From Haloplanus ruber (GTDB lineage Archaea > Halobacteriota > Halobacteria > Halobacteriales > Haloferacaceae): 64,000 nt of DNA. The notes below the pieces were generated by a model that saw only the letters and a list, made by a program, of their open reading frames with translations, did not search any database and was not told the origin of the DNA. How positions within the stretch are numbered: the stretch's first letter is position 1; every line of letters begins with the position of its first letter. Of this stretch, positions 16,939-23,900 are shown in pieces. Location: assembly GCF_024494725.1 (NCBI RefSeq), contig NZ_JANHDK010000001.1, positions 248,001 to 312,000 of the forward strand. The letters are read 5' to 3'. Both the position numbers and the translations under genes were made by a program.

Positions 16939-18941
16939 GAGACGACCGCACCGACGCACGACGGGAGGCGAGCCGACTCACGGAACCGGTCGAAGAGGCC
17001 GCGAATCTGGCCCGGAAACTCGGCCTCGATCCGTATCCGGTCAACTACTGGATCGTCGATCACGACGAGATGAACGAACTCATCGCCTACGGCGGGTTCC
17101 AGCGGCGGTACCCCCACTGGCGGTGGGGGATGGCCTACGACCGCCAGCGCAAACAGGACCAGTTCGGCATGGGCAAGGCGTTCGAAATCGTCAACAACGA
17201 CAATCCTGCCCACGCCTTCCTTCAAGAGTCGAACTCGCTGGCCGATCAGAAGGCGGTCATCACCCACGTCGAGGCCCACGCCGACTTCTTTGCCAACAAC
17301 GAGTGGTTCGGGCTGTTCGGCGACGGCAACGGTGAGGGACGCGCCGACCTAGACGCCGCGGCCATGCTCGAACGCCACGCCGAAACCATCAGGGACTACG
17401 TGGAAGATCCGGAGATCGACCGCGACGAAGTCGAGCGATTCGTCGACGCCGTCCTCTGTCTGGAGGACACTATCGATCAACATCGGGCGTTCGCGCGCGC
17501 GGACGAGCGCCGCGGGAGCGAGGCCCCGCCGGACCTCCGGGAGCGCCTCGACGAACTCGACGTCTCCGAGGACGTCCGCCGCCACGCCTTCGACGAGGAG
17601 TGGCTGGACGACCTAGCCGAATCCGAACGGGCGGCCGCCCGTCTCGACGAACCGCATACGGACGTGCTTGCCTTCCTCCGAGAACACGGACAGCAGTTCG
17701 ACGAGGAGTCGGGTAAAGCCGAACCGTTCGAGCCGTGGCAGACCGACGTGCTCGACGTTCTCCGGCGGGAGGCGTACTACTTCGCCGGACAGAAGATGAC
17801 GAAGGTGCTCAACGAGGGCTGGGCGAGCTTCTGGGAGTCGCTGATGATGAGCGACGAGGGCTTCGCCGGCGACGACGAGTTCGTCACCTACGCCGACCAC
17901 ATGGCTCGGGTGCTCGGATCGCCCGGGCTCAACCCCTACAAACTCGGGAAGGAACTCTGGGAGTACGTCGAGAACGTGACCAACCGACGCGAGGTGGTCG
18001 ATCACCTCCTGCGGATCGAGGGTGTCACCTGGCGGAACTTTCACGACGTGGTCGACTTCGAGGCTGTCGAGGCGCTCTTGGCGCCCGATCCAGCCGTCGC
18101 GTCGATCACCACCGCCTCGCTCGACGGCCTCAACCCCGACGACCCGCGGATCGACGCCGACGCCCTTGAGCGTGCGCGGGCCGGGGAAGTCGACGTGGAG
18201 CGATACCCCTGGAAGGTGCTCACCACCGCGGGGCTGGCCGAGCGTCACTTCTCGCTGTCGAAACCCCAGAACCGGGGGTTCCTCGGTCGGATCCGACGGT
18301 CGGAGCTCGAACGGCTGGCGCGGTATATGTTCGACGACGCGAAATACGACGATATCGAAGCAGCCCTCGCCGACGTGGACTACGAGGTCGGCTGGCGGCG
18401 GATGCGCGAACTCCGGGAGAGTCACAACGACGTGACCTTCATCGACGCGTTCCTGTCCGAGGAGTTCGTGACCGAGAACGACTACTTCACCTACGAGTAC
18501 TCGCGGGCGACCGACGACTTCCGCGTCGCCTCGAACGACCCCGAAGACGTGAAAAAGAAGCTCCTCCTGCAGTTCACTAACTTCGGGAAGCCGACCGTCG
18601 CGGTCTACGACGGAAACTTCGACAACCGCAACGAACTGCTCCTCGGCCACCAGTACAACGGCATCGACCTCGACATCGAGCAAGCAAAGCGCGTGCTCGA
18701 ACGCACCTACGACCTGTGGGGACGGCCGGTGAATCTGATGACCATCGTCAAGGGGTACGACGAACACGAACTCGAGATTGCCCGACGGCGCAACCGCGAA
18801 CCGACGCCGACCGAGGTAGGCAAACGCATTCGGTACGACGGCGACCGGTTCGAAACTCACGACCTCGATCCGGAACTCGAAGAGCGCATCGCCGCCAACG
18901 ACATCGACTACGACACGAAACCCGACGACTGGCTGAACTAG
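16935..18941 (+). CDS. SpoVR family protein (YcgB-like)
   Basis: A 668-residue SpoVR protein, longer than the roughly 470-510 residues usual for E. coli YcgB. Typical elements are [19 protein letters not shown] and [15 protein letters not shown] near the N-terminus, [27 protein letters not shown] near residue 293, and [10 protein letters not shown]. The extra length lies in central and C-terminal sections. Last gene of the prkA operon; the operon order kinase-kinase-YeaH-SpoVR links it to stress physiology. Its stop codon overlaps that of the convergent DUF7344 gene at a shared CTAG. Confidence 0.93.
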
Positions 18942-19504
18942 TCGGTGCCGGAGTCCTCGGCCGCGGCGTGTCCCCCGATCCGGTCACGGCGCGCGACATA
19001 CGCATTGGCGCCGGCGACGACGGCAAAGAGGACCACGGTCAGGCCCGCGGCGGCCATCCCCGACACCACGCCCAGCCACGCCGCCACGAGGAGTCCCAGC
19101 GCGAGCGCCGAGAGGCCGAGATAGCACGCGTCCCACGGTACCTCACGCTCGTCGGGAGTCGAGAGATACGCCTCTAGTTCGGCCGCCCGGTCGGTGAGCG
19201 TGATCGTCCCTCGGTTCCGGTCGTACTCGACGATACCGGCCTCGTCGAGTTTCGGCAGGTGGGTCTGGTGGAGCGACGTGTAGACCCGCTTGCGCTGTTT
19301 GTAGTCGACTTCCGCCACCGGGATATCGTTCTCCCACGCGGCGATCCGCTCGGCGAGGTCACCGAGCGACGCCGACTCCGCGTCGCGACGGAGGTAACGG
19401 AGCACGTCCCGCCGCCGCCGGTTGCTCAGGATCGAGAACACATCGTCTCTCGACAGTCGATCCGGCCGTTGGGGTTCGCGACGACGGGGTTTCTGTATAG
19501 ACAT
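18938..19504 (-). CDS. DUF7344 winged-helix protein with membrane anchor
   Basis: A 188-residue protein. The N-terminal DNA-binding-type domain (about 15-115) starts LSRDDVFSILSNRRRRDVLRYL and includes YKQRKRVYTSLHQTHLPKLDEAGIVEYD, the conserved DUF7344 segment. Two C-terminal membrane helices (about 125-170) suggest a membrane-tethered regulator. It ends at the CTAG shared with spoVR. A role in regulating the neighbouring operon is possible but not shown by sequence. Confidence 0.85.
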   Translation of the reverse strand: MSIQKPRRREPQRPDRLSRDDVFSILSNRRRRDVLRYLRRDAESASLGDLAERIAAWENDIPVAEVDYKQRKRVYTSLHQTHLPKLDEAGIVEYDRNRGTITLTDRAAELEAYLSTPDEREVPWDACYLGLSALALGLLVAAWLGVVSGMAAAGLTVVLFAVVAGANAYVARRDRIGGHAAAEDSGTD

Positions 19505-19923
19505 GTGTAGTCCGGGCGGGTGCGGGAGTGGATCGCTCCGAAACGGAGACTAGACCGATCCTATGAGCGGTCACATTGCGTATACTATTCCGTCCGTTGA
19601 TAAATTCACCCCCACCGCGCCCCCGACGACCGACGTATCGCCACCACATCATCAGTGGAGAGTCGCCCGGTGGCACCGCCCGTTCGCGTTTCCGGCCCGC
19701 GTCGCCCCGGACGCCGCCGTCACAACCATGCCCGGTCAGGTATCTTGGTCGTCGGCTCGAATGGCCTCACGAACCGGACAGCTCACAGCACCGACGTATC
19801 GGACAGCCGTTCAGACACGTGTTCTCCAAGTTGGACTGTTCAGTACAGCGTGCAACAGACCGTCGTCGGAACTGGAATCAGCGGACGTCTCCGACGGATG
19901 CTCACCGCGGCAGCGTTATGCGG
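19505..19923. other. Gene-poor spacer with a decayed tRNA-Glu fragment
   Basis: No convincing gene in this 419-base stretch. Overlapping frames on the plus strand (from 19563, 19576, 19655) have low-complexity, non-acidic products and no promoter. The only recognisable element is the tRNA-like fragment at 19729-19778. The segment GTTGATAAATTC near 19597 could be part of the DUF7344 promoter on the minus strand. Confidence 0.6.
19729..19778 (-). pseudogene. Partial tRNA-Glu copy (possible attachment-site remnant)
   Basis: The plus strand reads TGCCCGGTCAGG, then TGGTCGTCGGCTCGAA (19746-19761), then TGGCC and, nearby, CCGGA. The intact tRNA-Glu gene at 20297-20371 has the same order, with 8 identical bases at 20301-20308 and the same 16 bases at 20320-20335. 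The T-stem-loop is shortened by about six bases and the D-arm half is lost. It is a degraded copy of the 3' half of the tRNA. Confidence 0.7.
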
Positions 19924-20148
19924 CTATTCGGCGACGACAACCGGCGTCGAACCGGCAACGATGGCGCCCGTAGCGAGTATCGCAGCGGAAAGCGCGACGA
20001 AATCGCCACTTGGTGAATAGCCGGCTAGCCCTGCACCCATCTGAACGATGAACACCGTGATGAAGTAACTGATGATGGCGAAGACTAGCAACACGATTGA
20101 TGCGATAATACTACTCACTAACACGCCGAATGAGTCAAGAAATCCCAT
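19924..20148 (-). CDS. Small two-to-three-helix membrane protein
   Basis: A 74-residue protein (MGFLDSFGVLVSSIIASIV) with hydrophobic helices at about 6-38 and 50-70 separated by GAGLAGYSPSGDF. It looks like a conserved haloarchaeal family with no assigned function. An alternative ATG at 20175 would add nine residues; the shorter start is chosen because the extension is not hydrophobic or conserved-looking. It lies between the tRNA-Glu gene and its degraded copy. Confidence 0.65.
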   Translation of the reverse strand: MGFLDSFGVLVSSIIASIVLLVFAIISYFITVFIVQMGAGLAGYSPSGDFVALSAAILATGAIVAGSTPVVVAE

Positions 20149-20296
20149 ATCACCCGACAGACCCGCGGCTGCCATTTACCACTTGGGACATATCCACGGG
20201 AAGTCAGCCCGTTTCGCCGTTCAGTCAGTACCGATAGCTCGGCCGTCCGAACCATCTCTAAGCGATACTAGTTACTCACAGAATACGGTCTGAGGA

Positions 20297-20371
20297 TGCT
20301 CGGTCAGGGATTCGAACCCTGGTCGTCGGCTCGAAAGGCCAACATGATTGGCCGGACTACACCAACCGAGC
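20297..20371 (-). tRNA. tRNA-Glu (anticodon TTC)
   Basis: The minus strand reads a 75-nt cloverleaf. The acceptor stem is GCTCGGT/ACCGAGC, with a discriminator A. The anticodon stem TTGGC/GCCGA encloses the loop CTTTCGA, giving TTC. The T loop is GGTTCGAATCC. No intron. Confidence 0.96.
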
Positions 20372-20426: not shown

Positions 20427-22010
20427 TCACGAGTCAGTCACGAACTCGAAGCGTGCGCCGCCGGTCTCGCTGTTTGTCACCCTGAGGGGCCAGTCGTGAG
20501 CGGCGGCGATGTCCTCGACGACGCCTAGGCCGATACCGGTTCCTCCCTCCGCCGTCGAGACGCCGAATTCGAGGACCGCCTTGCGCTCGTCCGCGGGGAT
20601 GCCGGGTCCGTCGTCAGCGACGTAGAATCCGCCGTCGTCGGGGAGACTGCCAACGGTCACGGCGACGCTCGCGCCCGACCCATCGTCGGTGGAGCGATGA
20701 TCCACGCTATCATCGGACTCTGTCCGGTTGTCAGTGGAGCTATGCTCCACACTATTCCGAAACAGGTTCTCGAGTAGCTGTTGGACGCGGGTTCGGTCGC
20801 CGCAGACGTCGAGTCCGTCCGCGACGGTGAGCGTCGCGTCCTCCGTTCGGACCTGCGCCCAGGCGTCTTTGGCTACCTCCGCGAGGTCGAGTTCCGCGGG
20901 GTCCTCGACCTCCTGTCCGGCGCGAGCCACCGCGAGGACGTCCTCGATGATGGCGGCCATCCGGTCGTGTGATTCCTCGACTTTGTCCAGCAGGTCGTTA
21001 TCGCACTCCTCGCGGGCGGTGTCGAGCCAGCCGTCCGCGACGTTCAGGGGGTTGCGAAGGTCGTGTGAGACGAGGGTCGCGAACCGTTCGAGGCGGTCGT
21101 TCTGTCGGCGGAGGCGCTCGGCCACCAGCTTGCGTTCGAGGGCGACGCTCACCCACCGACCCATCAGATCGACGAGCGTAACCTCCCAGTCCGAGAACGG
21201 CTCCGTGCGCGGTTCGTTGCTGTAAAAGCAGAACGTCCCGTAGACGTCGCCCTCGACGATCACGGGCGTTCCGAGATAGCAGTTCACGCCGAACTCGGTG
21301 ACGTCCTGTTGTTCGGCTATCTCCGGGGCCTCGGCCGCGACGTTCGCGAGCACCAACGTCTCCTCGGTGAGGACGATGCGCTCGCAACTCGTCGTCTCCA
21401 GGTCGACCACGTCACCCGCCGCCAGGGAGTCGTCGGGGGCGCGAACCACCTCGAAGATATACTCATCACCCTGCACGCGCGAGAGGGTGCCGTAGTCGGT
21501 ATCGAAAACCCGCTGGCCGATCCGCAGGAGGTCGTCGATCCGCGTCTCGAAGCACGACTCCCCGTCAGCGATGACCTCGTACATCTCTCGGAGCGTCGCC
21601 TCGCGGAACTCAAGTTCCTCGCGGCGACGACGCCGCTCTGTGATGTCGCGGAAACAGATCGTAAGCCCCGTTGAGGAGGGATAAGCACGGACCTCGAACC
21701 AGACGTCCAGCGGCGCGAAATACTCCTCGAACGTGACAGTCTCGCCCGTCTGCATCGCTTCCCGGTATCGCTCCTCGAAGGTCGTGCCCCGGGCGCCCGG
21801 GAGCAGTTCCCAGAAGCTCCGCCCGACGAGTTCTTCGACCGTGTGCGTCTCGCCGACGGCGTCACAGATGAGTTCGCGGGTCCGCTCGTTCAGATACGTG
21901 AGTCGCCACTCGGTGTCGAGGCCCAGAACCCCGTCGATCATCCGATCGAGCACCTGAGCGTATCGGTCACCCTCGTCGACATCGGCGTGCCGGTCCGCGC
22001 CGTCACTCAT
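20427..22010 (-). CDS. PAS-GAF sensor histidine kinase
   Basis: A 527-residue soluble kinase. PAS domain at about 15-125 (ending CFRDITERR), GAF domain at about 150-300 (with NCYLGTPVIVEGDVYGTFCFY), HisKA H-box FATLVSHDLRNPL with phospho-acceptor His316, and an HATPase domain with N-box FRNSVEH, G1 YVADDGPGIP and G2 GTGIGLGV. No membrane segment or receiver domain is seen. An in-frame repeat in the N-box region expands the ATP-binding domain (20689-20750). The partner regulator is not nearby. The signal is unknown; GAF domains of this type often sense light, redox or small ligands. Confidence 0.93.
   Translation of the reverse strand: MSDGADRHADVDEGDRYAQVLDRMIDGVLGLDTEWRLTYLNERTRELICDAVGETHTVEELVGRSFWELLPGARGTTFEERYREAMQTGETVTFEEYFAPLDVWFEVRAYPSSTGLTICFRDITERRRRREELEFREATLREMYEVIADGESCFETRIDDLLRIGQRVFDTDYGTLSRVQGDEYIFEVVRAPDDSLAAGDVVDLETTSCERIVLTEETLVLANVAAEAPEIAEQQDVTEFGVNCYLGTPVIVEGDVYGTFCFYSNEPRTEPFSDWEVTLVDLMGRWVSVALERKLVAERLRRQNDRLERFATLVSHDLRNPLNVADGWLDTAREECDNDLLDKVEESHDRMAAIIEDVLAVARAGQEVEDPAELDLAEVAKDAWAQVRTEDATLTVADGLDVCGDRTRVQQLLENLFRNSVEHSSTDNRTESDDSVDHRSTDDGSGASVAVTVGSLPDDGGFYVADDGPGIPADERKAVLEFGVSTAEGGTGIGLGVVEDIAAAHDWPLRVTNSETGGARFEFVTDS
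20689..20750. repeat. Imperfect 45-base tandem repeat inside the histidine kinase gene
   Basis: Two copies of a palindromic unit: GTGGAGCGATGATCCAC at 20689-20705 and GTGGAGCTATGCTCCAC at 20734-20750, exactly 45 bases apart, so in frame. The second is a perfect 7-bp inverted repeat around TAT. The encoded segments are SVEHSSTDN and SVDHRSTDD. The repeat extends the loop just after the N-box of the ATPase domain. Confidence 0.8.
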
Positions 22011-23057: not shown

Positions 23058-23900
23058 ATGACGTTCAGCGTGCTCGTGCCGTCTTCCCTCGTCCGGGAAG
23101 CCGAGGACAAACGCGAGGCAACTCGCAAACTCGGTTACGTCGCCCGCGCGGCGACGGTGTTCCGGGCAGATCGGCTGGTCGTCTTCCCCGACGTGGAAGG
23201 CGAGCGCCGCTGGGGAGGCGGGTTCGTCGAAGTCGTGCTTCGGTACGCCGCCACGCCCCCCTACCTCCGAAAGGAGGCGTGGGGGCGGCGGGACGAACTG
23301 GAGTACGCTGGCGTGTTGCCGCCCCTCCGCGTCTCGTCACGGACCGGCTCCGGACCGGAGCGTCCGGGGTCGTTACAAGAGGGAATCGTGACCGAGGTCG
23401 GACCTGACGGCCGCGTTCGGGTCAATTGCGCACTGCAACACCCGATCTCCCTCCTCCTCCCTGACGGGATGGAGGTGAGCGAAGGAGAGCGCGTCGCCAT
23501 CAGGATCTCTTCGAGAGAGCCGGTCCGCGCCCGGATCGTCGACGAACCCCCACCGGGGTTCGCGATCCGGCGTGCGGACCTGTCGGAAGCGCTGGCCCGT
23601 TCCGACGCGGGACGACGCATCGCGGCGTCCCGCCACGGGACGGTGCTGTCGGTCGACCGATTGGCCGACATCGTCGGGCGCTCGGGCGACATGACCGTCG
23701 CCTTCGGGGCGCCCGGGCGAGGGCTTCCGGCCATCCTCGACGTATCGGTCGAGGACGTCGCCCAGGCGGGCGATTCGGACGTCGAACCCGGACCGGGGTT
23801 CGACCTCTGGCTGAATACGATTCCGCGACAGGGAAGCGAGACGGTGCGAACCGAGGAAGCGATGTTCGCGTCGCTTGCACCCCTGACACTCACGGAGTAA
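23058..23900 (+). CDS. SPOUT-fold putative RNA methyltransferase (DUF171-like)
   Basis: A 280-residue SPOUT protein with an inserted OB-like domain. The N-terminus is MTFSVLVPSSLVREAEDKREATRKLG and the core LVVFPDVEG. The AdoMet-knot region near 210-250 contains VAFGAPGRGLPAIL, and the C-terminus GFDLWLNTIPRQGSETVRTEEAM is the knot motif of the archaeal/eukaryotic SPOUT1-type family. It most likely methylates uridine in rRNA. The gene is commonly found at the start of the ribosomal cluster in haloarchaea, and is 4 bases from rpl3. Confidence 0.85.
   Translation: MTFSVLVPSSLVREAEDKREATRKLGYVARAATVFRADRLVVFPDVEGERRWGGGFVEVVLRYAATPPYLRKEAWGRRDELEYAGVLPPLRVSSRTGSGPERPGSLQEGIVTEVGPDGRVRVNCALQHPISLLLPDGMEVSEGERVAIRISSREPVRARIVDEPPPGFAIRRADLSEALARSDAGRRIAASRHGTVLSVDRLADIVGRSGDMTVAFGAPGRGLPAILDVSVEDVAQAGDSDVEPGPGFDLWLNTIPRQGSETVRTEEAMFASLAPLTLTE

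Follow-up and report, generated by a model that had tools for sequence, protein, structure and literature searches.

A decayed copy of the 3' part of tRNA-Glu(TTC) lies downstream of the intact gene in a 64-kb stretch of Haloplanus ruber DNA (hereafter the window, i.e., the whole stretch that was analysed), and we consider, with a probability of about 0.7, that it is the scar of an integrative element that entered the 3' half of this tRNA gene and has since collapsed to a single cargo gene. The features of the locus, in window coordinates, are:

18938-19504, minus strand: gene of a DUF7344 protein, a conserved flanking gene marking the orthologous locus (Pfam; synteny)
19690-19728, minus strand: sequence beyond the distal copy, resembling the native tRNA-Glu 3' flank of relatives (flank test, best in the closest relative, L052)
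19729-19775, minus strand: decayed 3' part of tRNA-Glu, the putative distal attachment scar (alignment, shuffles, BLAST)
19776-20296, no strand: putative inserted interval, 521 bp, 55.5% GC (its gene is missing at this site in 11 congeners)
19924-20148, minus strand: gene of a 74-aa membrane protein, probably with two helices, as read by eye (start of the homologues; dN/dS)
20297-20371, minus strand: intact tRNA-Glu(TTC), the putative proximal junction with a reconstituted tRNA (ARAGORN; Rfam, 56.7 bits)
20427-22010, minus strand: gene of a PAS-GAF-HisKA histidine kinase, flanking the locus on the other side (Pfam; synteny)

The decayed copy is real and beyond chance. It runs from the anticodon arm to the 3' end of the acceptor, has the same orientation as the intact gene and lies 521 bp downstream of its 3' end, which bears out an earlier note on this DNA that had claimed a partial tRNA-Glu duplicate at ca. 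0.5 kb. Both sequence blocks on which that claim was built, i.e., 16 identical bases (19746-19761 in the copy, 20320-20335 in the intact gene) and the 8-base block CGGTCAGG, are present in the two copies in the order given. Local alignment of tRNA-Glu(TTC) to the sequence from 19729 onwards reached a score of 29.5, against 18.5 for the runner-up site in the window, and covers the acceptor 3' end, the T-arm and the anticodon arm including the TTC anticodon, with the 16-mer in a central position. Dinucleotide shuffles of the whole window (n = 40, both strands) had a mean maximum of 19.7 and a highest score of 23, and among 2000 shuffles of the adjacent 1 kb the highest was 24.5. As no shuffle attains the real score and the region outside the 16-mer is independently significant, we reject a chance match, the probability of which is practically negligible.

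With the 16-mer excluded, the acceptor/T-stem side of the copy remains significant (p = 0.002) and the 5' (D-arm) side is marginal (p = 0.025), and we therefore limit the secure copy to 47 nt, its extension to about 19795 being weak. This extent is comparable to that of the distal copies (49-67 nt) of integrated elements in relatives. BLAST gave 77% identity over 44 aligned columns, and the T-loop has lost 6 nt; the copy is not called as a tRNA by ARAGORN and has no family match among the Rfam covariance models even at E = 10. The other tRNA-Glu of the genome (CTC anticodon) was rejected as its source, with a score of 10.5 vs. 29.5 for the TTC gene.

The interval between the two copies is lower in GC than the window (55.5% vs. 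66.6%). It has no DNA or convincing protein similarity to the five intact tRNA-Glu elements described below, nor were ends of an insertion sequence or duplicated target sites noticed. Integrase, Rep and other element genes are all missing from it, and the search for integrase fragments nearby, which the earlier note had proposed, came back empty, with no Phage_integrase (PF00589) match in the 64-kb window; among the matches listed, the nearest integrase on the same contig lies about 450-490 kb away (C1:757993). The locus is for this reason described here as a remnant or scar and not as an element. Beyond the distal copy, positions 19690-19728 match the native tRNA flank of the closest relative (L052) with a score of 10, attained by 0 of 1000 shuffles, and those of other relatives more weakly. 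Weak signals (p about 0.02 or below) were also obtained between the sequence after the intact tRNA and the flanks of several relatives, the L052 flank itself being matched better beyond the distal copy.

The only gene of the interval is listed as an open reading frame of 83 aa that starts nine codons upstream of the conserved start; given that homologues begin at residue 10, the likely product has 74 aa. By eye, the protein is hydrophobic and probably passes the membrane twice, and Pfam has no family for it. Twenty-two homologues come from named haloarchaeal genomes (71-93% identity), eight plasmid records match it, and its distribution over haloarchaeal plasmids and chromosomes is patchy. Nonsynonymous distances between the window gene and its homologues are low (0.03-0.13, with 0.36 for L095) and synonymous distances range from 0.5 to saturated, which indicates strong purifying selection; the gene is conserved and is not pseudogenic junk. 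Its last residues differ from those of relatives through a compensating pair of indels, the stop codon being the homologous one. Genes for TrkA-type, CBS/hemolysin-family or sodium:calcium antiporter proteins lie near it on three plasmids but not in a fourth record, so that a role in ion homeostasis may be taken only as a lead. That it is a viral protein was rejected (no PHROG, no phage record and no IMG/VR contig), and so was the gene as a mobile cassette, no homologue lying beside a tRNA fragment in a search with 42 tRNA queries of 18 kinds. Halorarius litoreus has two copies of the gene (L076, L077) that share a stretch of about 515 bp at 79.6%; direct repeats of at least 12 nt were not found to flank them in the stretch tested.

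The site was compared with 11 congeneric genomes. SpoVR, together with its upstream partner, identified the orthologous tRNA-Glu(TTC) locus in all of them, and in most DUF7344 also lies on one flank, with the histidine kinase and/or a 192-aa TAT-signal protein on the opposite flank. Each of the 11 congeners has a single tRNA-Glu(TTC) here, and in none is the 74-aa gene present at the site; the presence-absence comparison suggested in the earlier note thus agrees with the expectation of that note, and its refuting case, with the gene next to tRNA-Glu in all relatives and no tRNA fragment, did not occur. A homologue lies on a different contig of one congener (G011), the match including one reported TAG. 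The same spacer has taken other insertions, e.g., transposase-like genes recognised by eye in L049 and L052, and in most congeners tRNA 3' copies of 20-34 nt are seen about 80-120 bp downstream of the tRNA.

Relatives also use this tRNA as an attachment site. In congener G003 (L048), an insert of 9,951 bp with 54.8% GC is bounded exactly by the orthologous tRNA-Glu and, at its other end, by 49 nt copied from the 3' end of that tRNA, after which the downstream sequence typical of the genus follows; the insert encodes a PF00589 integrase adjoining the tRNA, a DUF1424 Rep and HNH proteins. The same layout recurs in four loci of other genera (L060, L061, L062 and L065), with inserts of 8.5-13.7 kb, an integrase about 0.8 kb from the tRNA and distal copies of 56-67 nt, the long ones (62-67 nt) extending to the D-arm. 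Together with the congener comparison, these five cases support the proposal of the earlier note that the interval is what is left of an integrative element with the tRNA 3' half as its attachment site. The window's own genome has a further case at the tRNA-Glu(CTC) gene (C1:1347875-1347949), with an exact 42-nt copy of its 3' end 50.9 kb downstream (C1:1398889). The island in between (C1:1347950-1398888; L121-L123) has 51.1% GC, vs. 64-69% in the short flanks measured, and contains two integrase reading frames; it is an integrated element that looks recent, as the 42-nt copy is exact. Thus, the tRNA type, this very tRNA gene and the genome itself all have insertions of the attachment-site type.

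Based on the above, we postulate that a tyrosine integrase inserted a circular, virus- or plasmid-like element into the 3' half of tRNA-Glu(TTC) by recombination. The tRNA 3' part carried by the element would have made the gene complete again (20297-20371), with the original one displaced to the far end of the insert (19729-19775). Subsequent deletions would have taken out the integrase together with almost the entire element, so that 0.52 kb and a single cargo gene survived; the distal tRNA copy, having become dispensable, would have decayed, and the small membrane-protein gene may have been retained because it is useful. The geometry of the locus is as expected from such an integration, the duplicate having the same orientation, spanning the anticodon arm through the acceptor end and following the intact gene on its 3' side; the low GC of the interval (55%) and the fact that all 11 congeners lack its gene at the site support it as well, as do the plasmid-borne homologues of the 74-aa gene and a precedent in Haloquadratum (PMC3119063). 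Against it count the missing integrase, Rep and other element genes, the lack of DNA or convincing protein similarity between the interval and the five intact elements, and the position of the homologues elsewhere, which are not beside tRNA fragments; an integrated or free element combining the 74-aa gene with a tRNA-Glu 3' half did not turn up in the collections searched. That interval and scar go back to one and the same element is our inference; the deletion step is a deduction too, because no integrase or other element gene remains, and the expression "collapsed element" should be read accordingly. It is also conceivable, and very improbable in our judgment, that the 0.5-kb unit flanked by attachment sites never collapsed and is a single-gene, non-autonomous cassette, in which case tRNA-Glu-targeting elements, which are common in these archaea, would have provided the integrase in trans.

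Other histories could have brought a tRNA copy and a foreign gene together. The copy may be an old attachment scar and the small gene a later arrival by another route (an insertion sequence or homologous recombination), as would fit the observations that relatives of the gene are not in integrase-bearing elements and that the same spacer took other insertions in relatives; however, neither insertion-sequence ends nor duplicated target sites were noticed, the attachment bounds enclose the gene and the whole interval is low in GC, and we regard this history as unlikely. A tandem duplication of the whole tRNA-Glu gene, with one copy turning into a pseudogene and the small gene being inserted between them independently, would account for the marginal match reaching the D-arm and 5' half, as a full-length pseudogene would show it. 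Yet the long attachment copies in other genera reach the D-arm too, only one tRNA-Glu(TTC) is present at the locus in each of the 11 congeners, and two unrelated events would be needed to place foreign DNA exactly between the copies, which makes a tandem duplication quite unlikely. The copy could also be a worn member of a haloarchaeal repeat that duplicates the 3' half of the T-arm and the acceptor end downstream of tRNAs, a repeat that is common in the order and is called to mind by the 20-34-nt copies seen downstream of this tRNA in most congeners. Such repeat copies start in the T-arm, whereas the window copy has 16 identical bases 5' of the T-loop and has no inverted T-arm hairpin, and the exact pattern is missing from the window's genome. 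Above all, the window copy contains the anticodon arm, for which the hairpin repeat does not account; this explanation is largely refuted and we give it next to no weight. We thus favour integration into tRNA-Glu(TTC) with subsequent collapse.

Integration into tRNA genes is well documented in archaea. Archaeal integrases favour tRNA 3' ends, and their attachment sites can extend over the anticodon and T arms (PMC8371274); integration is accepted as the main source of archaeal partial tRNA genes (PMC9897764). The attR tRNA fragments of Thermococcaceae are likewise partial tRNA genes left by integration, but flank whole elements of about 9-23 kb (PMC9897764). In Haloferax volcanii, Halogeometricum borinquense and Natrialba magadii, related islands are integrated at tRNA-Glu and have a truncated copy downstream; unlike the window, these islands keep an integrase and the truncated copy is 5-48 kb away (PMC3119063). 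The L048 element shares the locus, the orientation and a distal copy of overlapping extent (49 nt) with the window, and differs in having an integrase, a DUF1424 Rep and HNH genes and in sharing no sequence with the window interval. Nearest to our case is Haloquadratum walsbyi, where an imperfect partial copy of tRNA-Thr1 downstream of the intact gene, with no integrase nearby, was read as the remnant of a prophage or integrative plasmid; its interval, however, is 6.7 kb long with many pseudogenes, the tRNA is a different one, and the copy has 5 mismatches in 57 nt (PMC3119063). The window scar is hence a further, more eroded case of a well-known event, with a nearly identical precedent in Haloquadratum. 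It adds one old scar to the haloarchaeal tRNA-Glu integration hotspot and hints at the way in which a foreign element can dwindle to a single gene kept under selection, and it leaves the general picture unchanged.

More attention than the scar is merited, in our view, by the hairpin repeats at haloarchaeal tRNA 3' ends, for which the literature searched yielded no description. The hairpin, which follows many haloarchaeal tRNA genes, consists of a T-arm in inverted orientation, a central GC-rich part (often AGGGAG...CGACCGTGG) and a direct copy of the gene's own 3' end, i.e., the 3' half of the T-arm and the acceptor end of that same tRNA; the repeats are sometimes or often in tandem, at a spacing of about 91-106 bp. 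Among 146 genomes of the order, 113 have the exact pattern GGATTYGAA-N15-45-TTCRAATCC, in up to 22 copies, and within the genus 11 of 12 genomes have it, the window's own genome having 0; the reversed pattern, used as a control, gave 0. A tRNA (Gln, Gly, Ser, Glu, Leu, Met or Arg) lies directly upstream in 13 of the 19 repeat loci inspected (L102-L120), and the left arm of the repeat varies with the tRNA. Three examples fold better than shuffles (z of -2.1 to -5.7). Further examples are at 12178-12467 of L047 and in L046, L049, L053, L055, L056, L059 and L063.

Two side observations concern other genes. The SpoVR gene of two congeners is interrupted at about residue 298 (9308-10419 of L046, 10005-11182 of L054) by an insertion of roughly 1.1-1.2 kb, which could be an intein, an intron or an insertion sequence. 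Within the window, Rfam identified an archaeal SRP RNA and, at 23404-23503, a match to the L4-Archaeoglobi ribosomal leader (67.4 bits); the latter falls inside an open reading frame (23058-23900) located upstream of apparent ribosomal protein genes on the same strand.
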